DNA of 64,000 nt, from NCBI GenBank assembly GCA_002682825.1, contig NOKP01000006.1, positions 1-64,000 on the forward strand, in the 5' to 3' direction. This DNA is from Neonectria sp. B-13. Lineage: Eukaryota; Ascomycota; Sordariomycetes; Hypocreales; Nectriaceae. Every line of letters starts with the position of its first letter. Positions within the stretch are counted from its first letter, which is position 1. Position numbers and translations under genes: made by a program. Shown here piece after piece: positions 4,691-41,777 of this stretch. A model generated the notes under the pieces. That model ran no database searches. It saw only the letters and a program-made list of their open reading frames with translations, and was not told the origin of the DNA.

Positions 4691-4697
4691 TGTATAA

Positions 4698-9990: not shown

Positions 9991-10082
9991 ATATAGATAA
10001 GGGCTTTATAGTTAGAGTAGTAGAGAAGCTAGGGGCAGCTACTATTAGTAGAGACTATAGTAATAGCTTAGGCTAGTCTTAT

Positions 10083-10300: not shown

Positions 10301-10304
10301 TAAT

Positions 10305-14690: not shown

Positions 14691-14699
14691 TAATAACTA

Positions 14700-21142: not shown

Positions 21143-23356
21143 TTACTGAGACTTGATAAGCAACTCAGTACGACCATCAATGTATACCACAGCAGTCGCT
21201 TTGCCGTTAGCATCAGAGGTCATCGTTTCTCGTCCAACAGAGTATGTCTGTCCAGGCTCCAATCTCTCAAAGTCGAGGCTAAAGTTCCCAGCCTTCTTGC
21301 CAGGGTAAAGGACGAGGTCCAACTTCTTGCCATCCTCGCTCCACGCCTTGGCAACGAGCACATCGGGGAATGGGGCGTTGGCGAGGAGCGGTCCAGACAT
21401 GGTGACGGGATCCGGGCCCTTGACCGTTGTGTTGGCCAGGTCCAGGTATCGTGACAGCCGTGCAATCAGAAGCACTGCCTGGGAGCTGGCAGAGAGACCC
21501 TCGTTCACCAGAGCACCAGTGCTGGTGGTTTTGGCGGGGAAGAACTCATTGTCAACCTGATCAATGGCGCTCTGGCGGATTGCCTCATCGCCGAACTCAG
21601 CGGCTGCTGCTGCGACGTAGACGTAGATGGGACCCTCGCTGAACTTGTAGTTGCAAGGATCCATCTTGTCCGCGCCCTTCAGATCCTTGACGAAGAGCTT
21701 GCCGGATTCGTCAAAGCCCAGGTATTCCTTACGCATCATAGCCCAGGTCCTGTGGGCAATATGGGGCAGGTAGCAGGTCATGTTGATGGCATTGATGCAG
21801 TCGGGCAAGAGAGCGGCAAAGTTCGGGATCGTGAATCCGGTGGTTTCGTTGCGGATAGCGAGTATCCGTCCATCACGCCCGGTAAACTCTTCTTCCAGGG
21901 CACGTTCGAAGCGAGGCTTGAGTTTGTCGCTCACGTTTTTGTCGGTGATTCGATCACCTACAACAAGACCCGACATGCCGATGAGGCTGCAAACACGTTG
22001 TCAGTGGGGGTGGGAGAGATAAAGGTACCATGTTCACTCACTTGCAAAGAGTATAAGTCCACTTCGGCTCGCATGGATAGAGACAATAGGGATTCTCGCG
22101 CCAGTTGTTCTCCAAGGCCTGCAGAAGTCCGGGATAGTCTGTCTTGTAGTGCTTTCCGTCATCGATGACGAACTCGAGGCAATCCTTTTCGAGGTAGCGC
22201 CGGTCTCCCGAGGAACTCTGATACAAGCCCATGGCAACAGCGAGGTAACCGGTGACCATGATGTTGTCCTTCTTGATTGGGTCCCAGTCACTCAGCTTGA
22301 ATTCGCCCAGCATCGACTCCCATTTCCAGTAGTTCATGACCTTCTTGGTCAGACTCTTCTCCATCGAGTTACGGCAGGCTTCAGAGACATATCCGTGGAA
22401 GTTGGGAGCGTAATTGGTCTGGAAAATGGCGAGAGCGTCCACAAGGCCATAGAGCTGGTAGCGGATTGCGGATTCGCGGAACTGATCGATGACGTCGAAA
22501 TAGCTGTAGTCGTCTGACAGGCCGCGCTCGATAATGTGCTGCATGAATCGGAGCGTCTTTAGGTCCAGTTCCCGGGATCCTGGAGCCGGAGCAGGAGTGG
22601 CGTTCTCGACGTTATCCCGGACAGCTTGCACAACGTACTTGTTGCGTTGGGACCTTTTGGTGAACCCGATGGCATTGTTCTTGGCTGCGACTGAGCTTGT
22701 CCAGTAAATCACCAGAGGCGTAAAGACGGCCCAGATGATACCCACCCGATCGACGATGGGAGCATCACCCACCATGTAAGCAGCACCAAGAGTCGAGCCA
22801 AAGTAGACAAGCACGGGGAAAAGGGCGAAGCCAATGCCGAACCAGATCACGAGGGAGACAGGTACCATGACCACTGACAGAAGAAAGGCCAGAGCTGCGG
22901 GCCATGTGCCGATGGCAGTGAAGCCTGCTCCAGGAAAGATCAGGCCAAGTCCAAAGACTCTCAGAGCCGGTGATTGAAGATAGTAGAAGGCGAATAGCCC
23001 AGCCGCATAGAGAGCAAAGTATCGTGTAAGTGTCTGCTCTTGATAATGCTTCTTCACGATACCCAGGCCGACAGACTCTGGGATCAAGCAGTCTATACCT
23101 CCTAGTCAGTGACGGCGGTTGAGAAAAAGATTATACATACCTGTAACGTCGAACGGGACGGGATGCTTCTCTGGCGCCAACGACTGGCGTGCATTTTGTG
23201 AGGCGGGAACTGATTTAATCGCAGTGGATCCATTCTCCCTCGGTTTGACCTTGGTAGCAGCCGAGAGTGAAGGAGCAGCTTGCGTCTGGGTCTTGGAAGT
23301 TGTTAGCTACTGTAAGAGTACCCTTGAGCCAATCTGGGACTTACCAAGGTAGCCAT
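21143..23356 (-). CDS. Membrane-anchored linalool dehydratase/isomerase-like protein
   Basis: Four exons (23356-23345, 23291-23141, 23092-22042, 21986-21143) join in frame to 685 residues. The short first exon ends MATL before GTAAG. The other junctions are GT-AG. After a Pro/Ser-rich N-terminus come about four hydrophobic segments (residues about 75-200). The soluble part follows, with FHGYVSEACRN, DNIMVTGYLAVA and the cysteine-rich NPYCLYPCEP...TLC. The second and third of these cysteines are nine residues apart, the spacing of the Cys171/Cys180 pair reported for Castellaniella Ldi. The layout, membrane domain plus Ldi domain, is that of the Thauera linalool isomerase. The family interconverts linalool and geraniol (and myrcene in Ldi). 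The substrate here is inferred. Two CGGTCCG sites lie 150-190 bp upstream. No damage is seen. Confidence 0.72.
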
Positions 23357-23505
23357 GATGAAGTCAAAGCACTGAGCTTCGAATTGCTGGCCTAATTAAT
23401 GAGCAGCAAGGAACTTAGAACTCGAGACTTTACGTGTCACAAGATGCTCTCTGATATACCAACCCTACGGCAAGTATCTGGCTCCTTTTCAAACTGCTTG
23501 TCATA

Positions 23506-23548
23506 CGGTCCGCTTGCCGTAGTCTACTCCCCGAGCTTCAACGGTCCG
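23506..23548. promoter_or_regulatory. Two CGGTCCG sites upstream of the Ldi-like gene
   Basis: CGGTCCG occurs at 23506-23512 and 23542-23548, about 150 and 186 bp upstream of the ATG at 23356. It is a CGG-N-CCG inverted repeat, the half-site type bound by Zn2Cys6 dimers. The same palindrome stands in front of the other cluster genes. Confidence 0.5.
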
Positions 23549-23701
23549 GTCTCCCGTCGCCCTCAAGATGTGTCCGACCTAGTACTCAGGACTGAGGGCT
23601 GAGAACGTGGTCTCGGCCGTCTCGGTTAGCGGCTAGTAAACTCTAACCTGTGGATCCGAGGATATACTAGGGCGAGAAACTCCTCTGGTTGGCGGGGGGT
23701 A

Positions 23702-23746
23702 TGTCACTTCCAGTATATAGGCTATCACGTAGTCGGCAATGCGACA
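23702..23746 (-). mobile_element. Short MITE-like element, copy 1 (internally deleted)
   Basis: It begins TGTCACTTCC, continues with agtatataggctatca, then jumps to cgtagtcggcaatgcgaca. Compared with the 82-bp copies it lacks the middle hairpin part. The ends are inverted (TGTCAC / GCGACA). No clear target duplication is seen. Confidence 0.5.
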
Positions 23747-24100
23747 GCCACTGGGCTGCCGTGACAGATCCAAGGGACATGTACTCCGTACCGGCGGTGG
23801 GAATAGCACTGTGCGTAGGACGTGGCAAGCAGTGTGGCCTGCTCCTGTCCTCACGAGGTAAGGAAGTTGCGAACGCCTGCATCCCCGGGACACTTGGCTG
23901 GTTAGGTACCAGAGTTACGGGTGCCGATGTCGTTGCGTCATGGAGGAAGAGAGGCCTATAGGCATTGATCGCAATCACAGCAATTAAAAACACGGTAGGC
24001 CCATAGAGCCTTGACTACACACGGGGGATGACCGCTACGTAAATGGTTGCCTCCATGCTTACCTACTTATTCCGAGCCATTGAGGGTCGGCCGCCCACCC

Positions 24101-24150
24101 CACACTCCACACTCCACACTCCACACTCCACACTCCACACTCCACACTCC
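24101..24150. repeat. Microsatellite, seven copies of CACACTC
   Basis: Seven perfect 7-bp units (cacactc) in a row. No coding context. Confidence 0.9.
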
Positions 24151-24329
24151 AACGGCCGGCAAATGCCGTGTGGGGACCGTGCGCCGTGAGTCCCGAACGG
24201 AGGCCCCCCCAGATTGGCGAGGATAGAGGTGATCTGTAGCTGCTGTAACTCTGCTGTATGGCGCTCGTTTCTACTGAGGCTCTATAGCTCTGTTTATGCT
24301 AGCGTACTAATGCCATATGGCTGATTGTA

Positions 24330-24425
24330 TACCCGATTTTGGTGGGATTCGAACTCATGACCGACCTCTCTGGTTGTCGTAGGGGCAGCCTGTTCCAGCT
24401 GCGACAGCAATTTTCAGTGGAAGTT
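24330..24425 (-). other. tRNA-like / SINE-like sequence
   Basis: The minus strand contains GAGTTCGAATCCC, a near-perfect pol III B box / T-arm, at about 24342-24354. About 50 bp upstream is a weaker A-box-like GCAGCTGGAACAGG. The T-stem has mismatches and I cannot build a matching acceptor stem, so it is not a functional tRNA. It could be a tRNA pseudogene or the head of a degraded SINE. Confidence 0.3.
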
Positions 24426-24454
24426 GCAGGACATTGTCCTCCCGGGCTCATAAC

Positions 24455-24522
24455 TGTCGCATTGCCGACTACGGCAAAAGGGAATATGTAGTGCAATGAT
24501 AGCCTATATACTGGATGTGACA
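24455..24522 (+). mobile_element. Short MITE-like element, copy 2
   Basis: It runs from TGTCGCATTGCCGACTACGG through aaaagggaat and gtagtgcaatgatagcctat to GGATGTGACA. It is 68 bp and lacks the gcgcactccgctaatgc hairpin of copy 3. Terminal inverted repeats are TGTC(G/A)CAT. No convincing target duplication is seen. Confidence 0.6.
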
Positions 24523-26085
24523 GTGGCTGACCCCCTCCATATCTAAAAACCACAACAGAACTTACCACTATTTTCGGATATTTTTGTTCCAATCACAAAA
24601 ACATGTTCTCGTTCTAGAACTTCTTTTTCTGCTTCGCCAAACACGCGCCCCATCAGGCCATCTCTCACCTGGGAATTGCAACATTACAGGTTATATGCAC
24701 GGGTACAAGGGAAGTCAAGTAACGAGTGACAAATGTAGAAGGTTGCGACACGTCGAGTAATGTACAAATAATATCCCCGGTTGATGACAAGCAAAAGTGA
24801 AAGAGAATAAAGTCCCTACGCGATACCAGAGTCATCGGCTGGGAGATTGAGGTACGTCTCCCACTGCTCCACATCACCAGCCAGTACAGCATGTTGCAGC
24901 TCCTCATCCTAAGCATCATGGGCAGGCCATGATGTCCAACGTGGCTAACGCGAGGTCCAGGACCACAGCCAACACCACGACCGGACCGACAGCGACATCC
25001 TCGATGGCGGCGCCGGAGAACATGCTGTATCGCTACCTCTTTGACAGGGGACAGTCATTACCCCAAGGCCGCTTGGCCGTTAGTCTGCCCGCCCCGACAG
25101 TCGGCAGCATAATTGCTGCGACCGACAGCTACCTCGGAAATCTGGACCAGGCGATGGGACGAAGATCGGCAGCTCCCGGACACGATGTCCGACACGACAA
25201 GATGTTCCAGGACCTAAACGGCATGACGGGGGGCAATTGGGTATCGTCTCTCGCGCTTGCGAGTGCTTGGAAGCTCTGGAGGCATCGTCGAGGGATGGAC
25301 GCGGTCGGTCGGTCGGGAGCGAAGGGGTACAGTATAGTATACCTCGGGTGTTCGGCGTGATTTTGGGATAGCAAGCGGAGACTCGGCTCGAAACGATTTC
25401 GGGGGGAAGCCGCGAAGGAGAAGGGCTTTTTGGGCGAGATGGAAAGGCGACGGAGTCAAAATTGGACGTGGTCGAGAGGGACGGGACATAGAATGTTTAT
25501 CATGCAATGCAATAGAATGGAATGAAGTCGAGGCAAGGTTTCTATTTGCCCGGCCATGAAATCCTCTGCCCGAAAGTCAGATCGCAGATGCGTTGATCGC
25601 AATTGCGACGAGGGACCCTCTCTCAGCTCTTTGTTTGAGGCAACTGCTCAACAACTGTGGCTGTCTCTTCCTTCTGCCACGATCACTCTTCCAAACGCGA
25701 CGCGTCGGAGATTCCCTTTCGTGGCGGTGCTTCTGCCTTAGGGTCTCAGGCATCCTTATACGCCTTGAGCCTGAACTTCCGCCTAGATATCACAGTACTG
25801 AGTGCTAAGATTGCGTGTTCAAGAGCAGGGGATAATGATGGAATGCCAGCCAGGTGGAGGAGCCACTTGCAATGGTTGGCAAGGTGGGCTTGTGTAAAGG
25901 CAGTTAACGGATACTAGTCATCGATGAAGAGGGCTAGAAATTGATCCCTAGAGATATTGCGAAGGGATACAGAGGCAGGCATGTATGACTGTGAAATGAC
26001 TTGTCGAGGTTGGTCCCTTACATCCTCACCCGCGTGATGTAAGTTGTCTAGTTCGCAACGGCTGACTTGTGTGCTGATATTCCAG

Positions 26086-26600
26086 CTTGAAATCGAGTAA
26101 CGACAAGAACCACCGCGCTCATATCCTTCTTAAACTCATACAAATTGCATTCTTCGCTGCAATCATTCTTCTGATCGCTGGCGGAGGTCTGGGCGGCTCT
26201 AAAATATATGTCACAGCGGCAAGATCTCTCTCTAAAGCTAGATATGTAACGCTTGCTGTTGTGCTCGTCCTGGTGATGATAGAGTTGATCTATCTCTATA
26301 CCTAGAGTCATCGCATCGATGCTGAAAAGTTCATTGTAAGTAAAAATTTCTTCCACCAAGATTGTCTCATCTAAACTGTACTGGCAGTTTGTCAGACTCA
26401 CTCTTGCGGCCATCCCAGCACTCATCCTGCGTACTGTCTATGGGCTACTTTGTGCATTCACGGTGGATGATCCGTCTACTATCTGGAATTCGCTTTTTGG
26501 GTCAGCGGTGGCTTTCACTCTGATGTGTTTGCTGCCTGAATACTTGACGGCTCTCATCTTTTTGTTTCTTGGACTTCGCTATTTGGCAGCATCTTCATGA
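26086..26600 (+). pseudogene. DUF7702-type membrane protein, 5'-truncated with an in-frame stop
   Basis: After a plausible acceptor (ttccag, ending at 26085) the frame reads HILLKLIQIAFF, IILLIAGGG, a loop, and VTLAVVLVLVMIELIYLYT. It then hits TAG at about 26303-26305 and continues SHRIDAEKFI to a GTAAGT donor. After the acceptor tggcag the next exon gives LAAIPALILRTVYGLL, DPSTIWNSLFGSAVAFTLM and a final helix LTALIFLFLGLRYL before TGA at 26598. These match the C-terminal helices of fungal DUF7702 proteins. The N-terminal half is not found upstream. The TAG is one C-to-T change from CAG. The function of the family is unknown. It is likely a pseudogene lying between the Ldi-like gene and the alcohol dehydrogenase. 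Confidence 0.55.
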
Positions 26601-26710
26601 AGAAGGGCTGAAGGGTCTTAACATTGTGTCGTGCGCTGCTTAGCATTGCCATGGTCAAGATGGTACTGTCTTCTGCTGATACAGCTCTCTGGAGTCTGGT
26701 TGACCTCAAG

Positions 26711-26964
26711 CGGTCCGGTTCCCGCCTGCTAAACGACTTGGAGCATCACGCAAACGCCGGGGCTTCGGGGAAACGCCAGATTGCGGGGAAACGGGGAGGC
26801 ATGGAATGGAAGGACTCTAGCGAAAGTAAAAGACATCCGGTATGCACCGTCGCATGCTCTGTTTGGCTAACGGTTAGAACAACGGGGAGAACGGAAAGGC
26901 GGGGACGGTCTTGACAGGACCGCGACGCGAGTTTGAGCCAATTCACGGCGAACGGACCGGTCCG
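26711..26964. promoter_or_regulatory. CGGTCCG and a double CGGACCGGTCCG palindrome before ADH
   Basis: CGGTCCGG lies at 26711-26718. A perfect 12-bp palindrome CGGACCGGTCCG, two overlapping CGG-N-CCG sites, lies at 26953-26964, 129 bp upstream of the alcohol dehydrogenase ATG at 27093. It is the strongest instance of the motif shared across the cluster. Confidence 0.55.
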
Positions 26965-27092
26965 CCACCGAGCTGAATAGAGCCTAAAAATTCATGAAAG
27001 TTACAGTCTTATTGCCTCTAGAACCTTGATGGTAGTCAGTCTGCTGTTCCACTCCATCACCAACAATTCATTTATTCACCCTTTGTAACCTG

Positions 27093-28602
27093 ATGCATCA
27101 TCAACTAGCCATGAGGCCCTCGATCCAGACCACCCAGGCGATTGTCTCCCACGCCCCCGAGGCTGGCAAGAGACGTTGGATCTTGGAAGAAGTCCAGGTT
27201 GGACAGCCTGGAGAATATGAGGCCATCGTGGAAATGGTGGCCTCCGGGGTCTGTCATACTGATCTCGGTTGTGGGACTGATCCAGATGGCACTCCAGGGT
27301 TTCCCGTCCCTCCGTACCCACGCGTGCTGGGCCATGAAGGTAGATCTTTCCAATCCTCACCTGTTCCATTTGCTGATTAGGCCAGGTGCTGGCTATGTCC
27401 AGTCTGTCGGTTCCAAAATCACCAAAGTCAAGCCTGGAGATGCAGTCCTGCTCTCCTTCGCCTTTTGCACCCAGTGTCACAACTGCCAGTTCGGCGCCCC
27501 TGGCTACTGTCACAAGTTCTCCGAACTCAACTTTACCGGGATCAAGAACGCTTTCCAGTTCCCGAAGGACGCCTCTCAAGAGATTGGCGGATCTTTCTTC
27601 GGGCAGTCAAGCTTTTCAAAGCTTGCACGGGTTCAAGAGACTGCTCTTGTCAACGTCAGCAAGTTTGTGAGGAGCAAAGACGACCTCAAGCTGCTGGCAC
27701 CCCTAGGCTGCGGTATTCAGGTACGTCCAACACCTTGAAGATAGCTCTACTTGTGAAAGGATGTGTTCAGGCGCTGATATTGCGGCATTAGACTGGTGCA
27801 GGTACCGTGACCGAGCTCGCTGCGGCAAAGCCTGATGATAAGGTCGCCATCATTGGCCTGGGTGGTGTTGGGCTTGCAGCCATCATGGCAAGTGCCCAGA
27901 CTCGCGCACGACGAACTGACGCTAAGATAAGCTCCAGGCCGCGAAACTTCGAGGCTGTCGAATCATCATCGGCATTGATCGAGTTCCTGCACGAATCGAA
28001 ATGGCAAAGAGACTTGGAGCAACGCACGGAATTGATACTTCGTCCATCACAAGCCTAACTGACGAAGTCCGCAAGATTACTGGAGGATCAGGCAGTACTA
28101 TTACCGTCGACGCAACCGGAGTGTTGCCATTGATTCAGCAGGGCTTGGAGTTCACGGCGAATCAAGGCAAGATGATCCTGCTTGGCGTTGCGCCAATGGA
28201 CGCAGGATTGGAGATTGCCGTTGTTCCTTACATGGTGGTACGTTTTGGATCCGTCTGAACCTGATTACTGGTCTCAATCAACTAACTCTGTGCCAGACGG
28301 GCAAGCAAATCATGGGCAGCATGGAGGGCGGCGTCTATCCTGAAGAGGTCCGTATAAGATGTCCATGCCTTAACGCAGGCATTTGCTAATGTCTACCCAG
28401 TATATCCCTCGCATGATTCGCTGGTTCCAGAACGGGCAATTCCCAGTTGAGCAGCTGGTCAAGTTCTACCCCGTGAGTTCTTCTCTCATCATTGCGACGG
28501 GGGCTGTTGACTGACTGTTTCTAATCTCAGGTACGGGACTTCCAAAAGGCCATCAGGGATATGGAAGATGGGTCGACGATCAAGCCTGTGTTGATTTGGT
28601 GA
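27093..28602 (+). CDS. Zinc-dependent alcohol dehydrogenase (aryl/terpenyl alcohol type)
   Basis: Seven exons (27093-27339, 27386-27720, 27792-27887, 27938-28237, 28297-28347, 28401-28472, 28531-28602) give 390 residues, usual for this MDR group. Catalytic zinc ligands sit in GVCHTDL and GHEGAG. The structural zinc loop is CTQCHNCQFGAPGYC. The NAD-binding loop is GLGGVGLAAI, followed by IIIGID with an Asp that favours NAD. The FFGQSSFSKLA segment is typical of the benzyl/geraniol alcohol dehydrogenase branch. The third intron needs a GC donor (ATG|GCAAGT), a known minority type; the fifth has a weak GTCCGT donor. Predicted reaction: primary allylic or aryl alcohol to aldehyde. It is convergent with the aldehyde dehydrogenase at 29.2-31.0 kb, its likely partner. 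Substrate unproven. Confidence 0.85.
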
Positions 28603-28769
28603 TCGATAGCTCGTAGACTAGCTCGAAACATGCAAGATGCCTGCAAGCCTAGCACGTGGTTGAATCTCTCTTTTTCCCAGTCCCACTCTTCAGACCGTCG
28701 TTCGCCTTGAAAAGCCGCGTGATGACTGTCTAGAGGCTAGTCGGCAATCCTGTGATTGGGTCTTGACCG

Positions 28770-28851
28770 TGTCGCATTGCCGACTACGGCAAAAGGGAAT
28801 GCGCACTCCGCTAATGCGTAGTGCAATGATAGCCTATATACTGATGTGACA
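28770..28851 (+). mobile_element. Short MITE-like element, copy 3 (full, 82 bp)
   Basis: Ends are TGTCGCAT and ATGTGACA. The interior has a small hairpin around gcgcactccgctaatgcg. It is flanked on both sides by GACCG (28765-28769 and 28852-28856), a candidate 5-bp target duplication. An inverted partial copy (ctagtcggcaat) lies just upstream at about 28737. Confidence 0.65.
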
Positions 28852-29099
28852 GACCGCGAGGCTCGGGGTTCGGACCGTGTATTGCAACATACCCCGCAAC
28901 TTGGCGCGTCCTGGTTAAGCTATTCAAAATACGGGCTAGGCTTAAACATGTGTGAGAGGCTTCCGAGGCAAGAAGAGAACGTTCTTTCTGCCTGGTGCAG
29001 TGGATTACCTTGACAGTTGCCCGTAGGTTCGGAGGAGGTGGAATGCGGTAGGGTAAGAGCACATGCAGATACAGCCTTGGAAACTTCTAGATTCCTTCA

Positions 29100-29182
29100 T
29101 GTCACATTCAGTATACAAGTTATTACTATACTACGCATTAGCGGAGTGCGCATTCCCTTTTACTGTAGCTGGCAATGCAACA
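29100..29182 (-). mobile_element. Short MITE-like element, copy 4 (full, 83 bp)
   Basis: Opposite orientation to copy 3: TGTCACATTCAGTATA ... ctacgcattagcggagtgcg cattcccttt ... ggcaatgcaaca. It is flanked by CTTCA (29095-29099) and CTTCG (29183-29187), an almost perfect 5-bp duplication. It diverges from copy 3 by scattered substitutions. Confidence 0.6.
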
Positions 29183-29243
29183 CTTCGTAATTTGTTGCCA
29201 TTGAGAACTGTGTAGAATACTATTGCGCCAACCTCTAGACCAT

Positions 29244-30996
29244 CTAGCTAACAATATGCTTGTTAAGGAACAGAGTCTGAACATTGCAGAATCCCTTGAG
29301 ACCGTTGACACCCCACTCATTTCCAATTCCACTTTCCTTGTGTCCACCGAAGGGTGCCATCGGTGACAGATCGAAGTGAGTGTTGACCCAAACAGTGCCT
29401 GCTTCGAGCTCCCTGGCAACACGCTGCGCCTTCTTGACGTCTTTGCACCACACTGAGGCGCCGAGACCTAGCAATGTGTCGTTGGCACGCTCGAGCACTT
29501 CCTCCTCCGTCTTCCAGGACAGGAGGGGGACAATAGGGCCTATATAAATTGTCAGCGAAAAGCCATTCGGAGTTGGTATTTAATGAGGGCTTGCTTACCG
29601 AAAGGCTCCTCGACAACAATCCTCGAGTTCTCGGGAGGGCGGTCGATGATGGTGGGTGTGACAAAATAACCTCCCGACGGCGTCGACTCCATCTTACCAC
29701 CTGCAGCCACCTTCCAGCCCTGCTTCTCGATGTCGTCAAAGAAGGTCTTGACTCTGTCATACTGCATCGAGTTCTGGAGGGGTCCGTGGCTGATTCCTTC
29801 TTGGGAGCCGTCACCGAGGGTGTAGGCCTTGACGTGCTTGACCATAGCATCTCGGAACTGATCGTAGATGGACTCGTGGACGTAGATCCGCTTCAGGTTC
29901 AAGCAAATCTGATTCTGAGTCAGCATCCTGTACATTCCTTTTGTAGGTAGACACATACCTGACCGGAGTTGAGGAAGGCAAACAGGGCAACCTTTTCAGC
30001 AACCTTGTCGACGTCCACGTCAGGGAAAACAATGGCAGGGTCGTTTCCACCGCTGGCCATACGTCAGTCTTGGGGGCTCCAGGATGACATGGCTAACTCA
30101 TTGTGTGCTTACAGCTCAAGTGTCACTCTCTTGAGAGTCTTGCTCGCGCTCTGGAGAACCAACTTTCCGGTTGTGGTTGAACCTGTGAAGCTAATCTTGT
30201 TGATGCCGGGGTGACTGGTGATCCAGGGACCGAGGCGGTCGTCACCGCTGAGAGACTGGACGACGCCAGGGGGGAAGAAGTTTTGGGCCAGCTCGACGAG
30301 CTTCAGTCCGCAGTAGGGAGTGAATGGTCTTCGTTCAGGTTAGCGATGAACAGATTTCCACCATCGGGGTATCGGGCGACCACTTACGAGGGCTTGACGA
30401 TAATGACATTACCAGTCAGGAGCGCAGGGGCAATCTTGCCTGTGGCAAGCAAGAGAGGGAAGTTCCACGGGACAATGGCAGCAACAACACCGATTGGGGT
30501 ATACCGACTCACCACGGTTCTGTTCTCGTTGTCTTCAATGACATCCTCGGGGAGGTCAATGTTGGCCATCCCTTGGATCCACCCAATAGCAGCTGCCGTC
30601 TCGCCATCTGCTTGAGGGATCTGGTAACATGAGATTAGCATGAGCTCGTGCCAACGGGGAACGTCGAGGTCGTACAGGCTTGCCCTGCTCAGAAATGAGA
30701 AGGTCCCTGAATTCAGTCTTGTAGGCCTCAACTGCATCAGCATATGCAAGGACGGCCTTGCGTCGCTCCTCGTAGGGAACCTTTGACCAGGTCTTGAAGG
30801 CTTTCTTCGCAGCCTCGACAGCGGCATCAAGGCTCTCTTGAGTGGCGACGGGGACCTCGGCCTTGGGCTTCAGGTTTGCTGGGTTGATGCCATGACGAGT
30901 CGAGCCGGTCGGGGCGCTTTTGCCATTGATGATCTGGACAAAGCCCTCGTTAAAGTCCAACGCGGGAGCAGCCTTCTTGGCACCGTTAACAGCCAT
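29244..30996 (-). CDS. NAD(P)-dependent aldehyde dehydrogenase
   Basis: Six exons (30996-30676, 30620-30388, 30328-30113, 30052-29959, 29908-29599, 29539-29244) join to 489 residues, normal for the family, starting MAVNGAKK. Family landmarks in order: PWNFPLLLA with GKIAPAL, the cofactor loop [10 protein letters not shown], the general base Glu in TLELGGNDP, the catalytic Cys in NSGQICLN, EEPFGPIVPLL, and [11 protein letters not shown] near the C-terminus. No targeting peptide is seen, so it is probably cytosolic. It lies tail to tail with the alcohol dehydrogenase and could oxidise that enzyme's aldehyde to an acid (geranial to geranic acid if the cluster handles linalool/geraniol). A CGGTCCG site is 194 bp upstream. 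Substrate is inferred from context only. Confidence 0.88.
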
Positions 30997-32258
30997 GATG
31001 AGAGAACTTTGGTGGAACAGAAAACAAGTGAGACAAGAGTGGATTGGGTTCAAATCTCAGAGCCTTTGACGATCCCCCAATCTCTTAAATGGATCTTGAT
31101 CTCTGTTCGTCATCCTTCTCCCCCGCATTTTGGCCCGACGCCACTAACACTTGGGCGAATCAAGGTCATTGCGGAGAGCGATCGAGACGCGGTCCGATGC
31201 CGAAACGCTTCGTGGAGATGAGCCCGAACGGGTTTAATGACCATCTCCTGACTACATGATTGGTCCAATTTCTGAGACAAACTCTCAACAACTGCGCCTC
31301 GGCTCGGGAGCGTCGGGTTCCGATGCCGGGCGGGCTTCGGCACGTAGGCTTCTGCTCTCAGTTGATAATTGATGCTACGTTTTGTGGCTTTAAGATGCGG
31401 AATTCTGATGGCCCACCAATTGCTTGAATTTATACCTTCATGAGGTAACTCTGCCAATGCATTACAGCCCATGGGATTTGCTAAGAAATATGACCAGTCT
31501 GATGTTGAAGGGCATCTAGCAGATACTGTGGTATAGTGCGACTTCTGCCTGACTTCTCCCTTGCGATCAGATTAAGCCGCTGACAGCTGGATCAAGATGC
31601 TTGCATGGCACTGCTGTCGGTGCAAAGGAACGGACGATCATAGCCTACGTTGGGAATGGCATGATGAGTGTAAAGGAGGTGCGAGTTTCCAAGTGCCGCC
31701 CTACTACGCCATGGGATATTAAATACCCGGCCACCCTACTGCACCGGGCCGAGCAACAACAGCACCCCGATATTCAGCACTGAAGAGCCGTAATTGGCGT
31801 ATGATATAGTTTTTGTCGGCAGAAGTTCTTCAGGAAGAGCCCATTCCCGATTTTGCAATGATGGCCCAGTCCGACCGTTCCGACGCCTGATTGCTCCGTT
31901 CCCGACAAACGATATCATAGGCTTTAGGCCGCGACTACTACCAACAAGTCGACGGAGTTGTGGATGTGAACTGATGGACATGAAGCAATACCTATTTACG
32001 ATTGGTCTATTTGCCAAAGATTGCGCTTGATGTCATCGTCCGTGAACGGTCCGAGGAAGCCCTTAGAGGCGACGCCGACCACCCCAGGTCCTGCGTGCCC
32101 CATGTTGAAGTGCCGGCAGTTCACTGCGACGAGTCAGTGAATTCCATTCGAGTCTCTATATAAGGTAGTTTTGAACAGCCCAGATGCCGTTGTCAAGTCT
32201 CCAACATCTCCTCAACACTTTGACATATCCACACACTTATCCTACTGTTAACACCATA
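30997..32258. promoter_or_regulatory. Divergent promoter region, ALDH / GPR1-type gene
   Basis: A 1.26-kb stretch between two divergent starts. CGGTCCG lies at 31190-31196 (194 bp from the ALDH start) and at 32047-32053 (206 bp from the transporter-type gene start). Pyrimidine-rich text and ctccaacatctcctcaac precede the ATG at 32259. No gene is seen inside; the small open frames lack any domain. Confidence 0.5.
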
Positions 32259-33314
32259 ATGACTACCCCGGGTCCCAAGTCTCAGAATGGCAGCACTGAT
32301 GTCGAGATGGGCTAAGTTGATGCCATAGAGACGGTCCGCTCTGCCGCCAGCATCTCCATGAGTTCGGAGCTATTCGAGAAGCTCTACCTTTCCCCACCCA
32401 ACGCAGTAAAGGGTGATCTGAGGAAGACCTTCGGCAACCCAACTCCCTGGTTCGTCTTCCTCTACAGTCGTTTAAAATTTTCCGATGCACTAATGCTCAT
32501 CTGTAGAGGCCTTGTGGGATTCGTGTTGTCCTTGATGCCGCTTTCCTGCGCCCTCATGGGCTGGCGAGGAGCCGGCACCTTCGGCGCGGCAGCCATGTAT
32601 GTCTCTGCCATTTCCACACTCGAGCCAGCTACTCACGCGCGCGCAGTGCTGTGTATTTCTTCCTGGGCGGCCTCCTCATGCTCATCAGCGGCATTATGGA
32701 ATGGGTCCTCGGCAACAGCTTTCCCTCCATCGTTTTCTGCAGCTTTGGCGGCTTCTGGCTGTCCTTCGCCGGAACCCTCAACCCGTCGTTTGCCGCCTTC
32801 GCCTCATACGCGCCGGCAGACGCACAATCTCCTGCAGAGGGGATGGCTACACGGGGGTTCAATGCTAGCCTAGGTATACAGCTTCAGCTCCTGTTGTTGT
32901 TGGAGTGAGGTGCTAACATTATTCGACAGGCTTTTGGCTGATTGCCGTCGGCATGCTAGCCATCGTGTATCTCATCTGCTCGTTGCGCACCAATGTCGTG
33001 TTCGTCACCATATTCACCAGCCTGGTCCCTGCGCTTTTTCTTATGGCTGGGGCGTTCTGGGTTCTGGCAGATGACTACGCAGGAAACGCTCGGCTTGCGA
33101 ACCGCCTATTCGTGGTGGGTTTCCTCTCCATGTTGCTTTATTCTGTCTAACATGCAAATAGGCTGCCGGTGGGTGCGCTTTCGTTACTTGTCTGGCGGGG
33201 TGGTATATCCTCCTTGCTATTTTGCTTGCTATTGTCGACTTTCCAGTCCAGATCCCGGTCGGAGATCTATCGAGCGTCATCAAGGGGAGAAGCGAGAGGC
33301 AGAGTGGTCATTGA
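32259..33314 (+). pseudogene. GPR1/FUN34/YaaH (acetate/ammonium transporter) family gene, probably damaged
   Basis: Family signatures are clear: EKLYLSPPNAVKGDLRKTFGNPTP, PLSCALMGWRGAG, YFFLGGLLMLISGIMEWVLGN, FGGFWLSFAGTLNP, GFWLIAV, and a last exon GGCAFVTCLAGWY ... VDFPVQIPVGDLSSVIKG. Later exons (32647-32873, 32930-33114, 33162-33314) splice cleanly. Two defects appear. From the first ATG (32259) codon 19 is TAA (32313), one C-to-T from CAA. Removing the first 57-nt intron (32450-32506) creates TGA at the junction, one G-to-A from TGG; leaving it in keeps the frame. An internal ATG at 32358 would bypass the first stop. A functional protein of about 250-267 residues is therefore possible but doubtful. 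Such carriers import acetate in other fungi. Confidence 0.6.
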
Positions 33315-33572
33315 TGGGATGGTATGAGTAGAGTTCTACGACTCTGCCCACACTCTTGAGTCATCTCAAGTCGCCAAGGGTCTTGTTTCTCGCCAACATT
33401 GGTCAAATGCCTTACAACCAAAGCCATGTGAGGCCTCGTCAGTCAAGGAAGCAGGACGATGCAGAGTTAAAAGTAGTTCTGTGATAATTAAATGTCCATT
33501 CAGAACGGGTTTTCCGCTATAACATAGAAATGAATCGTCCGTATATACACAGCCCAGAAGTGAGATCGAGGT

Positions 33573-35975
33573 TCATCCACAATCCACTCCCAAAGTATCC
33601 ATGCTGTTTTGCGTGCCTGAAAGTCCTTCAGTACCAGATAAATCAAAGTTGGCTGCTGTGTAGTCCACGTCGAAATTGAGCCACAACGGCGTGGGCATGT
33701 TCACCGGGCCGCCGCTCGATTCCCTTGAACTGTCACACATGGCGCCGTAGTCGACGATTGACCAGAGACTCGCTTCCACCTCCGGGTCGATGTCGAAAGA
33801 TGCATGCGGGTCGATCATGTTCTCGAAAGCCAGTGCATGAGCATCAAATGCGACGAGCTGATTGTGCTGTGCCTCGGATTAGCTCCTGTCGTGGTGACAG
33901 GTGACAACTTTACCATTTTTGCAGCATGGTCCCAAAAGGCACTCATGTCTTTCAGAGTCTGGAAGCATTGTTGACAGGCTTCAAGCAGTTGCGAGGACGC
34001 AGCCTGTCCCTTGCTCTGCCCACCGTGGATGAATAGCGAAAGCACGCTGCCGGCAAGACAGGTAGAATAGGCGTAAAACGACGCCTCGACGTGGCAGCCT
34101 GCGCTCCGAGCTTCATTTAACCATGCCGGTAGTTTCGAGGCGTGGTCTCGACAAGTGTCGAAGGCTCTCGCTAGGAAGCTGGGCGGTGCTTTGGATTTTA
34201 GTTTCCGCAGCCGCAGAGTCAGGAGGAATGGATGGTTCAGGAGGCAGTGGCACAGGTGGAAGACCACTCGGGCGAAGATGGCATGTCCCACGGTCTGGTG
34301 ATCCAGTGATCCATCGGCTAGTCTGTTATTGTCGATGATTTCGTTGGCCGTTAGATCGTCCACTTGCAAATGCTGCTCGATCAGCAGCAAAAACGAGTTG
34401 ATTGCCGCAAACTCGGATCTCGAATCCCACGGCAGCGAGTCGTCCGTGTCGCGCTCATGAAGCACGTAACGGGCGCAACGGCCCAAAGCCGACGCAACGA
34501 GAATTGCGAGAGAGAAGTGTCCTCGGATCTCGCCGAGGTCGGTGTCCCAGTTCAGAAGCTGATGAAGCGTTGCGGTTCGCTTCCAGATTCCTGCCCGGAA
34601 CACTTCCTCTTCGGCTGGCATCTGAACGTTGCAGTCGTCGTCGGCGATGGCTGGAGGACGGGCTTTGCCACAGGACACAAGCTTGTCCAGGAGGTAGACC
34701 GACCAGAATACTCGTCTTTGCTCCTCTTGCTCGACGACTGGGAGGAGGGGACTTGGCTCTTTCATTAATTGCAGATCCTGTGCAATTCTCACTGCCAGGC
34801 CAATCTTTAACCATCCAGAACTTGTCCGGCCGGCTGTGAAGTCAATAATGGCCAGGAGGTTGGTCGTTTGCGCAACATGGAGGTTTGGACAGTTTTCCAC
34901 CGTCAGGTGATCAGTAAGAACGCACAACCAGGCCTGCCGTGCGTATACTTCCATAGCCTCGTGTGTTTGTTCCTGGAAGAATTTGTGGTTGGAGAATCTA
35001 ACCGAGGACGCAAGAACCGCGAAGATCAGGCACTTTGGGAGGAGCATAAAGCTGAGCAGCTGTCGGAAATGCTCCTCTTGGAAGTATGCGTAAGGCTGGT
35101 TGTGGACGTGGAGGAAGTATGTGTCGACGAGATGCTGGACGACCGGATCAGGTGGCAGGGTGCTGAAAGGACTGGATCGCTGTAAGCTGCGAGAGTCAGA
35201 AACAGACATGTTCACTGGCACTCACGATGTATCCGACTCAGCCAGGTTTGGGGGCGAAGGCATGTGTGGTTGGGCTTTAGGGCTCGAGCTGTACTCTGGA
35301 GCTGCGGTTTGCTGCTCTTGAGAAGCAGCAGCATCGTCGTCGGGCAGCTGTTGATGCATCTGATCACTCTTTCTTCGCGCAACAAGGTCAGCACCTCGAC
35401 AGCAAAAGCCGTCTTCAGCTTCATGGCAACCTACTTTGGTTCTTGGGCTCCTTGCTCACTCAACCAAGCTAGTTGAGCTTCAACTGTGCTGAGTCGCCGG
35501 AACAGGTCCGTCTATTTTACACATGTCAGTTCTCGCATCGTAGATGGACAGCATGTCTGTCTGGTTCGAGGGAGGCAATGGAGGTCGTACATCTCCAAAC
35601 CCGGGCGGGAATGCGGCGAGCGGGTGGGCGGCCATGATCGTCGAGTAAGCTTCATAGTGACACGAGCGGTTGACGCGCCGGCAGTTGATGCATTTTGGAC
35701 GGTGTCCAGAGCATTTCGTCTTTCGTTGTCTACAGAAGGGTAGTCGCGTCAGTGTCATTCATGTTGGGAGTGCTTAGTGCGAGAGGCGATGCAAAGGACG
35801 TTGTCGCGAGAATTGGAACAGGTAGCATATGCGACGGATGGATCGAGATAATACCATATCAGCGATGAACTTACCGACAGCTGGTGCAGGCTTGTCGAAT
35901 GCGCCGGATGCCTCCCGAAACCGTCGGCGCATGCGCCCTGGTTCGCGGACTCGACTCGGTCGATATAGAAGTCAT
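33573..35975 (-). CDS. Zn2Cys6 transcription factor with fungal-specific regulatory domain
   Basis: Exon 1 (35975-35875, MTSISTE...) and exon 2 (35729-35591) join to form the binuclear cluster CTSCRQRKTKC SGHRPKC INC...C (C-x2-C-x6-C-x6-C-x2-C-x6-C). After a 79-nt intron, exon 3 (35511-35435) gives a coiled-coil linker DLFRRLSTVEAQLAWLSEQ. One or more linker exons rich in Gln/Ala follow (not resolved, about 35370-35227). The large exon ending near 33896 carries the fungal_trans domain (VDTYFLHVHNQPY, GRTSSGWLKIGLAVRIAQDL, EEQRRVFWSVYLLDKLVSCG). The last exon ends at 33573 with an acidic, aromatic tail, a possible activation region. Lying within the cluster, it is the obvious candidate to bind the CGG-N-CCG sites upstream of its neighbours. 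It has no such site that I can see in its own promoter. Confidence 0.82.
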
Positions 35976-36673
35976 GGCTTCAGCGCGCACGAGTCGCACC
36001 TCCTTATTTTCGACGCGACAAGGTAATTGACTGGCGGCAGGCGAATCTGCAATCACTGAAGGAGCGTCGTCGCAGAGTGAGGAGAAGGTTTTTAGCTTGG
36101 AACCCGACGGCACTGGAGAGCAAGGTGGGCAACGTCCGATGGCCACGAGCGGGGTCGGCTCCTTTCGTCCTGGTCTGGGCCCTTGACGTTGCGGGGGTGG
36201 AAACCTGGGGCAATGCGGAGGCGGGGATGGCCACCTTTGTCTCTTCAGGAATAGTCAGTTTGCGTGTGTGGTATCTGGCTTCGAGGACTGTGGTCCGGCC
36301 GTTTCTCGATAAAAAGGCCATGGCCGGCTTGTTGGAGGAGGCATACCAACAACGAGTCCAAGTCCTGGCTCGGAGAAAGGGAATGTTTGTCACTCTCATC
36401 CCACAGGCTATTTCACAGCAGTCAACCTCGATCCGTTCCTTTCCGTACCTCTGGTCCTGTACATGTGAGACTCATGCTTCTTGGCATCGACGCAAATGAC
36501 TCGACACGGCGGACTCTCCCCCTCCCAGCATTTGATCGACATCAACAATTGGTTACTTGAGAATTTCCAACAAAGGGTCCAACGATGAGCACTTCTCTTT
36601 CTATTGCCGAGGCATCCACAAATGCCTCGAGCTCTAGCATACAATTGAGTCAGGAGAAAGACAATACTCCGCC
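35976..36673. other. Intergenic between regulator start and acyl-CoA synthetase end
   Basis: About 700 bp. Open frames on both strands (36004-36399 minus, 36077-36499 plus) have no domain or start context. The minus one could be an upstream exon of the regulator, but I see no evidence for it. It probably holds the regulator's promoter. Confidence 0.35.
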
Positions 36674-38662
36674 TCAAAGCTTTGGTCTGACTCTCTTGAG
36701 GAGATCGTTCCCAAGCGCACGAATCAAATGTTTCTGGTACTTCCCGCTCCCCGTCTTTGGAAGCTCGTTTCCAACCTCCTCGTCGCCCAGCCAGAAGATA
36801 TGCTGAGGTGACTTGACCCGGCCAAGATGCTCGCTCACCCAGCCGCGCACATCGTCATCAGACGGCCGTCTCGCATTGTCGCTGGAGGCTTTTAGAAAAC
36901 AGGAAACAACCTCTCCGTACTTGTAATCTGCAAGGCCGACAACGCATGCCTCGGTGATGCTGGGGTGTGAAAGCAAGCGGTTCTCGATGTCGGTCGGTGT
37001 GATATTTTCGCCTCCTTTATCAAAGTTGTCAGTAATGGCTATGTGTCATGAGCACCTGGCATGCATACCGCGGATGATGATGTCCTTGATACGGCCCGTG
37101 ATGCGACAATATCCTTCCGAGTCAATGAACCCTTCGTCTCCCGTATGCATCCAGAGCACCCCGTTTTCGTCTCGCTTCATCACTTCCTGCGTCTTGGCCT
37201 GGTCATTCCAGTAGCCCTTTTGCAAGGCAAATCCACTTGTACAGAGCTCGCCGCGCGTACCGATAGGAACAATGTCTCCATTGACATCAATGATCTTGGC
37301 AGCTGTATGAGGGAAGACCTGCCCGATGGAGTTGTGCATCTTCTCTTCCGTGTCGTCCAGCGAGGTGATAAAGGTCACCGGACTAGTCTCAGTCATTCCG
37401 TAGGCAATCAGCATCCCTCTAATATTCATCCGCTTTCGAAGGCTCTCCATGAGGACTTTGGGCACTGGAGAACTAGCCGCCAGGCCAGTCCTCAACGTGT
37501 CGATCCTCACGGGTGCCTTTTCCAGAACGTCTAGTTCGGATATGAACATGGTGGGCACTCCGAGCAGCGCAGTTGCTTTCTCGCAAACCACGGCATCGAT
37601 GGTTTTCTGCGCGTCGAAGTTATCGGATGGGAATACGACGGTGCTTCCGTAGCAGAATGATGCCAAGAAATCCATTACGAGTCCAAAGCAGTGGAAGAGC
37701 GGTGGTGGGCAGCATACCACGTCTTCTTTAGTCAGTCGCATGGCATGTCCTACGAATCTTGCATTATTGACCAGGTTTCTGAACAGGCTCTTCGTTAGCT
37801 AGCTGCTCATCTGGGGGCTGAATGCGCGTGCATGTGTGTGAGAGAGGCGGCTTTTGGTAATCCCGTCGTTCCTGAAAAATCCATGAGACGCTGTTATTCA
37901 ACTTGCCAGCATGTCGAGCTTCTTACCTGAGGTGAATTGCAAGTTGAGCACATCCGATGGAACGACCCGACACTCAGCCTGTCTCAGCGCAGCGTCATTC
38001 ATGAATATCGAATGTGAATTTCCAACGAACGCGTTATACGACTGAACTTCTACACCCGTTCTGGGCTTGGCAAGTGTGTCTCCGATAATAACAAGCCGTT
38101 TGAGATGTGACTTATCAGTGGCCATGTGCAATAGCTTTTCGATGTGTCCTTCGAGAGACCGTGTTCCGATCGTAGAAGCTACAAAGACCAGCTTGCAATC
38201 TAACATGTGTCGGTATTTCTAGCCCAGGTGAACTGAGCTGTGATACTTACTAACGTGGGCCACTGCCGCCTGGAGCTCATCAGGGGAAAATGTATTGTTG
38301 ATCACAACAACGGGACAGCCGATGCGCGATCCACCGAGGAAGACGTCAATATACTGGGCGCAGTTCCCGGCCATGATCCCTACGCATTCTCCATGGCGCG
38401 TGCCCATCTCAAGCATGGCCTTTGCCATCAGCTTGCTGCGATCGGCAAGATCTTGGTAGGACAGACGAGTTGACTGCCATGGTGCGGAAACAGCGCATCG
38501 ACTTCCAAACGCCCTGGCTTGCTCTTCGATGAGTGACCCTAAAGTCCTGGTGAAGAGGGCCGGCTCAATCGGGCCGGAGACCAGTGACAGCTGCTTGTTG
38601 GCTTCATCGACAGAGTTCGTGGGCTGAGAAGCGCCAGCATCAGACGGGGCTGCGGATGTCAT
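36674..38662 (-). CDS. Acyl-CoA synthetase (AMP-binding, ANL superfamily)
   Basis: Five exons (38662-38251, 38199-37927, 37871-37832, 37778-37069, 37014-36674) give 591 residues. Core motifs: P-loop SGTTGLPKAA split by introns, YGMTETSP (A5), MHTGDEG (A7), GRIKDIIIRGGENI (A8) and the catalytic Lys in LPKTGSGKYQK (A10). It activates a carboxylic acid via an acyl-adenylate to its CoA thioester. Within this cluster geranic acid is an inferred substrate; medium-chain or aryl acids are alternatives. The short third exon is followed by an intron with no GT donor; a GC-AG intron (37831-37779, 53 nt) restores the frame and keeps THINLVNNARFVG. The C-terminus is -PKL, a non-canonical peroxisomal signal at best. 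CGGWCCG sites lie about 145-225 bp upstream. Confidence 0.85.
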
Positions 38663-38805: not shown

Positions 38806-38888
38806 CGGACCGGGCGTCTCCACCAAGTCCGAGAGCCGCCCAACCGCCCCAAACAGCCCCATGGAGTACCATCGGCAAGGCCGGTCCG
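38806..38888. promoter_or_regulatory. Two CGGWCCG sites in the divergent ACS / P1B-ATPase promoter
   Basis: CGGACCG lies at 38806-38812 and CGGTCCG at 38882-38888, inside the 348-bp region shared by the acyl-CoA synthetase (minus) and the copper-type ATPase (plus). A near match ccgtccgg precedes the first. The sites could serve either gene. Confidence 0.5.
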
Positions 38889-39010
38889 GCTGGGGAGCGG
38901 GGGATCCAACCCACGTGCAACCCTGCTGTACTCCTCAGCTGTCTCCGTACTAGGACCCTCGTGATGCCCCATCGCCAACTGATGCGCAACTCATTTCATA
39001 CACGCCCAGA

Positions 39011-41777
39011 ATGGCCTGCTGCTACATCGCTGCGTTCTGTATCAGCCAGTTGGTCAAGGCCTGCCAATTCCTCGATCTCGACAACACGATCCGGTACAAC
39101 GAGGGCGGCTCGACGGATGTACAATATGACAAAGGGCAACCGGAAGCGTCTACCTCCGACGGTGCGCAGGCATACCTAGTCCTCTCCCTGTCGGGGCTCA
39201 CCTGCTCTGCATGCTCAAGCTCCGTCGAGTCGGCGTTGGAGAAGCACCCAGACGTGGACAGCGCACGAGTATCCCTGCAGCTACAGCAAGCGACAGTGAT
39301 TGGAAAGACCTCCAGCCTCGACAGAGAGTCCGTTAGGAGAGCCGTGCTTGATCTGGGGTACGGGGCAGACCTTGGGCCTCGCTCGCCAAAGGAAATCATT
39401 GATGTCCTCAGGTCGAAAGAAGACATCGCGCGGCTCAAGTCCAGTTTATCTTCGCTCACCCAATGCGCCAGCATCATCCAGGCATCGGGCCTCCTGCTAT
39501 CCAAGAGTGGCAAAAGCTGGCTACCTTCAGGTGTGCTATTCCTGGTTCACGTCTTCTGCGCATCGCTCGCCTTGTTCGCTCAGTATCGCTACATTGCGTG
39601 GATCCACGTCGATGGCTGGAAATGGCTCCGCGGAGGACAGCCAAACATGAACACGTTGATATCCTTATCCATCTCGCTAGGTTCGGTCGTCTCGATAGTT
39701 GACTTGTTGGCTCGAGGCCCTCTCAAGTCAACTCCATACTACAGCACAGTTATTGGTCTTGCTCTGGTCGTTGTCTCTGGAAGGTATCTCGAGACAATGT
39801 CGCGACGAGCTGCCTCGGAGGACTTGATCAGAGTGTACAAGCCACTCCTCGAGACCAAATACACGAAACTCCACTTCACAGGAAAGGTATGGTGTGGGTT
39901 TGCTGAACCTTCTGGTGACCAACGCGGCTAATCATCATCAGCTTGTTCCACAGAGCTTCTTGAGACCCTCGGACGAAATCATCATCGAGCCATACTCGAC
40001 CATTCCATGCGACTGCTATGTTACGCTCGGGTCGTCTTTGGTCAATCAAGCTATCGTGACAGGCGAGTCCATGCCGGTCAAGAAAACCGTTGGCGATTTC
40101 CTTCTCGGTGGTACCCTCAACCTGGGTCATGAACTCGTTTGTGTCGTCCACAAGGAACAAGGAAACTCGTTCTACTCGCAACTCGTTCAGAGCGCTGCCG
40201 AAGCCTCAGGATCCAAGATTGATGAGTACCAGTATCTGGATGTAATCATGAAGTATTTCGTCCTGTGCGTAGTTCTCTTAGCCGCTGTGGTTCCATGGAG
40301 GAATGCATACTGGTCTCTCAGCTCTTTGGATACTTACGACGTCTTCCGTCTCGCTATTACTCGGTCCATGACAATTCTGACCTGCGCATGTCCTTGTGCT
40401 TTGGGTTTAGCGGTACCTTCTGCAGTCGTTGCAGCTACCAGTAAGCAATGCCAATATCATTCAGGTTAGAATCCTGGACAAGCTAATACTCCCTTTAGAT
40501 GTTGCTAGCCAGAAAGGCATACTCATCACCAAGGGCTTCTCAACCATCCAAAAGCTTTGCGATACTCGAACCATCATTTTCGACAAGACCGGGACCCTGA
40601 CGCGAGCAACACTAGATGTCTCTAGCTTCGAGACATCAGGTATGTGGACGGCAAACGTCCAAGAGTTCTGGACCTGTGTCTGCGCGGTGGAGGAGCACAG
40701 TGTCACGGCCCATCCGATCAGCAGAGCCATTTTCTCAGCTGGGGCCATGCACCTACAAAGCCAATGGCTGGAGCGGAAGGCACTTGTTCAAACACAAGGT
40801 GTGATTAGCGAGCCCGGCAAGGGAATCTCAGGGGATGTCTCTATAGAGCATCGACCTTGGCGACATGTTACCATTGGGAGTCGAAGGTACTTACGAGCTT
40901 CTGGAGTATCTGGTCTTCCCATGACACCTCAACAAGATGACCATGGAGGCATAGTCATCTATGTTGCTATCGACAGTCAGTTTGCCGGGACTCTCTTGAT
41001 CACGGTAAATCTTTCAGGAGCTACCATGGATATTGGCTAACATCAGGTAGGATGCCATAAGAGAAGACGCAAAGATCACCATTCAACAGCTCACAGCAAT
41101 GGGATATAAAAACAGCTTGGTGCGCAAACTCCATTACAGACGCAAAAACAGTACCGCTAACAGTTACATAGCTCACTGGAGATGTTGCGTCCTCGGCCCA
41201 CCGAGTATCTCGGCTGATCAACATTCCCGTACTTGGATCCGAAGCTACGCCTCAGGATAAACTCGGCTTCGTCACAAGGCTGCAAAAGGATGGCCAAGTT
41301 GTCACCATGGTAAGTATCACGCGGAGAAATCTCACCTGAAAGGCCATACTAACAGCACCTGGAGGTCGGCGATGGTCTAAACGATGCCCCAAGCCTGTCC
41401 GCAGCTGATGTTGGCATCGCTCTTTACCACGAAGCAGCGACTCCAACCGTCGGAGCATCGGTGATCATCCTTAACTCAGGCCTGGACTCAATACCGATAC
41501 TGCTCAAAATCGCCAAGCATACCGTACGCCAAGTTCGGTTCAATCTAGCGTGGGTTTTTGGATACAACTGCCTGGCGCTTGGCATGGCTACTGGCTTCAC
41601 TCACCCTTTTGGTATTGTCTTGACTCCGTAAGAAACAAACATCCCCTAAAATATGAGGCAATATTGATCTAATTTGCGCATAGGCCGCTTGCAGCCGCAC
41701 TCATGTCGGTGTCTTCGATCTTGATCACTGTGAATGGCCTCAGGTTACGGAGTACACTGGCTGCTTTGGAAAGCTAG
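39011..41777 (+). CDS. Copper-type P1B ATPase (heavy-metal exporter)
   Basis: Seven exons (39011-39886, 39942-40440, 40499-41004, 41051-41119, 41172-41309, 41356-41627, 41684-41777) join in frame to 817 residues. One N-terminal metal-binding domain has GLTCSAC instead of the usual GMTCxxC. The catalytic core is complete: VTGESMPVKK, the metal-channel CPC in CACPCALGLAVPSA, the phosphorylation motif DKTGTLT, the His-Pro motif AHPISRAI and the hinge GDGLNDAPS. Seven hydrophobic helices are obvious; eight is usual, so the first pair deserves a topology check. Monovalent copper is the expected ion because of CPC. It is shorter than multi-domain fungal exporters. It shares its promoter with the acyl-CoA synthetase, but its chemistry does not obviously belong to that pathway. 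Confidence 0.88.

Follow-up and report, generated by a model that had tools for sequence, protein, structure and literature searches.

A Neonectria gene cluster with a linalool isomerase-like gene, probably an upper arm of acyclic terpene alcohol breakdown

We analyzed a window of 64,000 nucleotides, the first 64 kb of a 2.1-Mb contig (C83) of the 60.9-Mb genome of the fungus Neonectria sp. B-13, in which an initial annotation had proposed a gene cluster for the breakdown of acyclic monoterpene alcohols at positions 21143-38662. This span agrees with the stop of a gene encoding a linalool isomerase/dehydratase-like protein (Ldi) and with the start of an acyl-CoA synthetase (ACS) gene. Pfam families recognized all six of the reported cluster genes (Ldi PF18566, ADH_N, Aldedh, AMP-binding, Gpr1_Fun34_YaaH and Fungal_trans), and hand-spliced models without an internal stop were obtained for four of them, namely Ldi (685 aa), an alcohol dehydrogenase (ADH; 386 aa), an aldehyde dehydrogenase (ALDH; 489 aa) and ACS (596 aa); the six gene identities originally claimed are thereby borne out. 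The genes lie as follows.

21143..23356, minus strand: Ldi-domain protein, proposed linalool isomerase (PF18566, spliced model, tree, active-site alignment, hydropathy)
27111..28602, plus strand: zinc alcohol dehydrogenase, 386 aa, 7 exons (one GC-AG intron), proposed geraniol dehydrogenase (PF08240, model)
29246..30996, minus strand: aldehyde dehydrogenase, 489 aa, 6 exons, proposed geranial dehydrogenase (PF00171, model)
~32260..33331, plus strand: GPR1/FUN34/YaaH carrier gene, probable pseudogene (PF01184, 59.4 bits)
~33815..35975, minus strand: Zn2Cys6 regulator, start read by eye (PF04082, sequence, tblastn)
36674..38662, minus strand: acyl-CoA synthetase, 596 aa, 5 exons (one GC-donor intron), proposed geranyl-CoA synthetase (PF00501, model; paralogues beside related regulators)

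The gene cluster is confirmed as real and beyond chance, because PF18566 occurs at only two loci in the whole genome and because Ldi has the same neighbors both in other fungi and at the second of these loci. The second locus, at C39:5.866 Mb, contains an open reading frame of 699 aa (Ldi2; C39:5865519-5867618, or L001:802-2901), which carries an N-terminal SCO1/SenC domain (141 bits), is ~24% identical to the window Ldi and keeps both catalytic cysteines. Close to Ldi2 lie an ADH, matched in two pieces at 69% and 54%, an ALDH whose pieces match at 53-81%, and a regulator related to that of the window (~70%). This second Ldi-ADH-ALDH-regulator cluster in the same genome is new here.

Among 70 Ldi matches, at least six had a partner gene within four locus-tag numbers (names read by eye); the neighbor counts are lower bounds, the partner-gene matches listed being the best 120 of 1741 and the best 120 of 235. 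These six are the following.

Fusarium sp. AF-6: CEP53_003024 (Ldi), CEP53_003023 (ADH)
F. verticillioides: FVEG_10965 (Ldi), FVEG_10966 (ADH)
F. falciforme: FALCPG4_007736 (Ldi), FALCPG4_007735 (ADH)
F. duplospermum: CEP54_010521 (Ldi), CEP54_010520 (ADH)
Neoarthrinium moseri: JN550_003649 (Ldi), JN550_003647 (ALDH), JN550_003645 (regulator)
Clonostachys chloroleuca: V2G26_005834 (Ldi), V2G26_005830 (regulator)

At least four more Ldi genes shared only a contig of the same size with a partner: another F. falciforme (ADH), Thelonectria olida (ALDH, regulator), C. rosea (ALDH, ACS) and Colletotrichum fructicola (ACS). The profile search and the synteny search that the initial annotation had suggested as checks were therefore both positive, the same partners being found beside Ldi in other ascomycetes. 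Its statement that no fungal cluster of this kind was known also held among the titles and abstract openings listed by searches of the open-licence PMC literature, none of which describes one; in a black yeast, ‘acyclic terpene utilization’ appears among enriched protein families (PMC5595782).

The window Ldi gene has four exons (23356-23345, 23291-23141, 23092-22042 and 21986-21143) and encodes a hydrophobic N-terminal part followed by the Ldi domain. Two exon pieces scored 147.1 and 95.6 bits against PF18566 (curated cut-off 26.1), and a search of NCBIfam gave no match. The active-site residues listed for linalool dehydratase/isomerase (LDI) of Castellaniella defragrans include C170, C179, His128, D38 and Y44 (PMC12455561); LDI residue names were also looked for in PMC6600392, and none were found. 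In our alignment, for which the LDI sequence was the 5hlr fragment 102-350 that leaves out D38 and Y44, the catalytic cysteines C170 and C179 correspond to C395 and C404 of the window Ldi, and both are invariant across 41 Ldi homologues (alignment A2). An LDI-type (α/α)6 barrel was found for an orthologue of the window protein. A paper on the linalool isomerase (LIS) of Thauera linaloolentis 47Lol (EC 5.4.4.4) predicts four N-terminal transmembrane helices (PMC4791888). By hydropathy, such N-terminal helices are also predicted in the window Ldi, with three segments over the threshold compared with four in P0001, three in Thauera LIS and only one in F. verticillioides P0006.

Thauera LIS has the same layout of a hydrophobic N-terminal part and an Ldi domain, is 34% identical to the window Ldi over 609 aa and forms the sister clade to fungal Ldi in a tree with long branches and only 38% of columns filled. 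LDI, described as a periplasmic 43-kDa protein (PMC4791888), shares the (α/α)6 fold, the two catalytic cysteines and a CEP motif with the window Ldi; however, it lacks the membrane part, is only 22.8% identical over 259 aa and falls outside the fungal and LIS clade in the same tree, so that it is not favored as the nearest type. Assignment to the isomerase/dehydratase family stands as first proposed, and the comparison supports a LIS-like rather than an LDI-like enzyme.

For the window ADH, the solved relatives at E ≤ 1e-60 included 5tnx and the benzyl alcohol dehydrogenase 1f8f. The geraniol dehydrogenase GeoA is placed near benzyl alcohol dehydrogenase, and the match to 1f8f is consistent with this, the window ADH being a candidate GeoA-type member of the aryl/allyl alcohol branch of zinc ADHs. 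A PDB search with ACS at E 1e-60 returned no match, and no NCBIfam model was above its cut-off for ADH (23 rows), ALDH (best 25 of 43) or ACS (best 25 of 107). The carrier gene belongs to the acetate-carrier family as first reported; its reading frame is not the intact one expected of a GPR1/FUN34 acetate carrier. It has probably decayed into a pseudogene, because there is an in-frame TAA in the N-terminal tail and the first intron has no in-frame junction (by eye, compared with the relative P0188).

The initial annotation had placed the later steps outside the window, and likely geranyl-CoA carboxylase (GCC) and further enzymes are indeed encoded elsewhere. A genome search with PF01039 found acetyl-CoA carboxylase on C1 (our reading), methylcrotonyl-CoA carboxylase (MCC) on C13, and further carboxyltransferases at C39:0.426 Mb and on C69. 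At C39:0.43 Mb, a GCC-type β subunit is accompanied by 3-hydroxy-3-methylglutaryl-CoA (HMG-CoA) lyase, an enoyl-CoA hydratase and an acyl-CoA dehydrogenase; an ACS (45-75% in its larger pieces) and a regulator, the third of the related ones (61-62%), are also there. C69 carries AtuA (350 bits), carboxylase α and β, hydratase, acyl-CoA dehydrogenase, an ACS and a regulator that is less closely related (33%). GCC differs from MCC in that Gly replaces Phe191 and a three-residue insertion just before it is absent (Jurado et al., PMC4673880); in our alignment, we took the Phe that immediately follows the insertion to be Phe191, as the wording of that paper suggests. Both GCC features, Gly and no insertion, are present in the C39 β subunit and in the carboxylase L111 on the Thauera LIS contig, whereas Thauera L110 and the fungal C13 protein have Phe and the insertion. 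By this alignment, plain MCC is rejected for C39 and unlikely for C69. These two Atu-like clusters, with GCC-type genes and a related regulator and ACS each, are new here, and they are tied to the window because of the related regulators, the related ACS genes and shared promoter sites.

The Atu-like cluster of C69 is present in two inverted copies, at 24-46 kb and 181-203 kb of a 227-kb contig, and mirror-image matches were also seen on C1, C36, C38, C50, C64, C72 and C114; these may be an assembly artefact or a real inverted duplication. After such copies were collapsed, the AtuA family (PF07287) was found to be expanded, with nine strong places besides C69 and two weak ones. Two regulator matches from the F. 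fujikuroi complex (P0199 and P0217) are named ‘HMG-CoA lyase’, a naming that would fit a neighborhood of regulator and HMG-CoA lyase genes.

The promoter sites share the motif CGGWCCG and are located in the window as follows.

23506..23548: two sites, Ldi promoter
26711, 26953 and 26958 (the last two overlap; span 26711..26964): three sites, ADH promoter
31190..31196: one site, ALDH promoter
32047..32053: one site, upstream of the carrier gene
38806..38888: two sites, ACS promoter

All 13 CGGWCCG sites of the window fall between 20461 and 38882, and nine are at most 500 bp upstream of five of the six cluster genes, compared with 0.24 expected (Poisson P = 5e-12; P = 1.3e-9 with a GC-adjusted rate), the genome containing 4815 copies, or one per 12.7 kb. 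Sites occur in the promoters of all four clusters, which is likewise new here; the recognized genes with a promoter site number 4/5 at C39:5.87 Mb, 4/6 at C39:0.43 Mb and 4/8 on C69, where one carboxylase-α start is uncertain. Regulator relatives were identified by tblastn at C39:5.88 Mb and C39:0.43 Mb, and also on C50 (37%) and C69. Pairs of sites number 20 at 29-59 bp and 32 at 60-90 bp genome-wide (reversed control, 90 and 84), and these form 37 distinct loci after inverted copies are collapsed, seven of them in the four clusters, which make up ~0.1% of the genome. Two pair loci outside the clusters were inspected. At C50:216028-221367 (L125), an ACS (45-52%) and a Zn2Cys6 regulator form a pair below a triple CGGWCCG site. 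The locus at C39:2.81 Mb was rejected as a further member, since nothing related was found in its sequence.

Similar gene sets were observed at a few bacterial Ldi loci. Our bacterial set comprised the best 80 of 104 confirmed Ldi loci, many of which end at contig edges. In L010, from a metagenome-assembled genome of Steroidobacter, GCC β (which also has Gly), GCC α, AtuA, ADH, Ldi, ACS and ALDH lie within ~15 kb; L048 has consecutive ADH, Ldi, ACS and ALDH; and Thauera L031 has ACS, GCC β, GCC α and LIS. That a few bacterial loci unite Ldi, ADH, ACS and ALDH with a GCC-type carboxylase is new here.

In Thauera, geraniol, geranial and geranic acid are formed from linalool and Atu and Liu enzymes were detected (PMC4847356), and linalool isomerase has been tied to the Atu/Liu pathways (PMC4847356, PMC4791888). 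The Thauera LIS contig resembles the Atu-like clusters here in its GCC β and α genes and an ACS-like gene; unlike those of Thauera, the fungal genes belong to a eukaryote, contain introns and lie scattered among several clusters that include Zn2Cys6 regulators. Pseudomonas Atu shares with this genome GCC-type β subunits, biotin carboxylase, AtuA, hydratase and acyl-CoA dehydrogenase, although the fungal genes are split between C39 and C69, with none in the window.

These results suggest a fungal pathway for the breakdown of acyclic terpene alcohols, organized as a dispersed regulon, whose substrates are most likely linalool and geraniol; the window cluster is probably its upper arm, and an Atu-like lower arm would stand under related regulators. 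This is the best account because of the gene identities, the GCC features, the related regulators and the shared sites, from which we infer the substrate, the direction and order of the steps, and the binding of the regulators to CGGWCCG. Through acid/base chemistry of its cysteines, the membrane-anchored Ldi would isomerize linalool, a tertiary alcohol and plant scent compound, to geraniol; ADH and then ALDH would oxidize geraniol through geranial to geranic acid, and ACS would yield geranyl-CoA. Geranyl-CoA would enter the lower arm, whose genes are those at C39:0.43 Mb, on C69 or at both places; there, geranyl-CoA carboxylase, isohexenylglutaconyl-CoA hydratase and an HMG-CoA-lyase-type cleavage would be followed by β-oxidation and leucine-type catabolism, and both arms would be switched together through the CGGWCCG sites by the related Zn2Cys6 regulators. 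The route from linalool to geranyl-CoA that was first proposed is thus supported by the domain, the synteny and the later-step genes tied to it, with linalool as its presumed substrate. It is possible, at somewhat less than even chances, that the genome encodes every step from linalool to acetyl-CoA, as a eukaryotic route via cofactor-free hydroxyl isomerization, with one regulon over at least four clusters that a family of related Zn2Cys6 regulators would read through CGGWCCG, and with two non-orthologous Ldi proteins (one LIS-like, one fused to SCO1) that feed one lower arm with different terpene alcohols.

Several observations weigh against the terpene alcohol pathway. Orthology of the window Ldi with the other Fusarium cluster Ldi was rejected (approximately unbiased test, P = 2e-5, with a quick tree and a group named after an earlier tree had been seen); the window lineage is common only to F. 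decemcellulare, which has the closest Ldi (86%) and whose Ldi gene FDECE_803 does not adjoin FDECE_6236 (ALDH) or FDECE_13831 (regulator) among the matches listed. The column of LDI His128 contains Tyr337 in the window Ldi and Trp in Thauera LIS; the Trp indicates that His128 is not required in the LIS branch. At the bacterial loci, ADH was matched in 5/80, ALDH in 16/80 and ACS in 13/80 (tblastn, E 1e-15), and at E 1e-20 GCC β in 4/80 (L027 being only 26% identical), carboxylase α in 6/80, acyl-CoA dehydrogenase in 3/80 and AtuA in 1/80, with no match for hydratase or HMG-CoA lyase. More than half of the 80 have none of these partners, and the Ldi family as a whole may therefore serve several substrates. 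With regard to regulation, the reversed motif is commoner genome-wide (11097 compared with 4815), the promoter of the regulator gene itself has no CGGWCCG, and, because promoters of the window and of C69 served for choosing the motif by eye, only C50 counts as a blind success (1/2).

Some of these points bear on the possibility that the same catabolic logic serves another tertiary allylic alcohol or alkene, such as nerolidol, geranyllinalool, 2-methyl-3-buten-2-ol or myrcene, and that the cluster degrades that isoprenoid. LDI accepts a range of α-methyl allyl alcohols (PMC12455561), the window Ldi represents a divergent lineage, and a second Ldi at 24% identity beside similar ADH and ALDH genes fits two substrates; in addition, the C69 β subunit, which has neither the insertion nor Phe, carries Ala in place of the diagnostic Gly. 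However, linalool isomerase is the nearer of the two characterized enzymes and the GCC-type features are those of a carboxylase whose pocket takes a C10 acyl chain, and we regard another substrate as rather unlikely. Still less probable is a general module for detoxifying or scavenging primary alcohols and aldehydes, to which Ldi was added as an accessory in some members. Homologues of ADH, ALDH, ACS and the regulator do lie adjacent or on the same contig in Aspergilli, as do those of ACS and the regulator in Rasamsonia, with no Ldi among the matches listed, and ALDH agrees best with broad aldehyde dehydrogenase models, all under cut-off among the best 25 of 43; against this, Ldi adjoins such partners in several distant ascomycetes and a few bacteria, and the GCC/HMG-CoA lyase cluster has related regulator and ACS genes and promoter sites in common with the window. 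Synthesis of linalool from geraniol as a volatile signal would agree with the description of that direction as thermodynamically favored for Thauera LIS (PMC4791888), yet it appears highly improbable, given that the genes for oxidation and CoA activation, together with the GCC arm, speak for breakdown and that no terpene synthase is among the named cluster genes (none was searched for genome-wide).

Other features of the window were also recorded. A gene with a heavy-metal-associated domain, by eye like a copper-type P-ATPase, adjoins the cluster at 38954-41040 and probably marks its right border. Between ADH and ALDH is a palindromic element (28769-29183) with 76-nt inverted arms that are 84% complementary; motifs near 23.7 and 24.5 kb resemble it by eye and look like one family of miniature inverted-repeat transposable elements. 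Positions 10000-18000 are very AT-rich (22-33% GC), their GC skew is strong and falls to as low as -0.60, and tandem repeats occur at 4688-4988 and 10793-11018.

If the terpene alcohol pathway is correct, the cluster would represent the fungal counterpart of a bacterial route. An Ldi/Atu route with oxygenase-free first steps in genera that live with plants, Fusarium, Colletotrichum and Clonostachys among them, would change the genome-based reading of how fungi use plant volatiles, and the question can be tested directly with the genes, locus tags and promoter motif given here.

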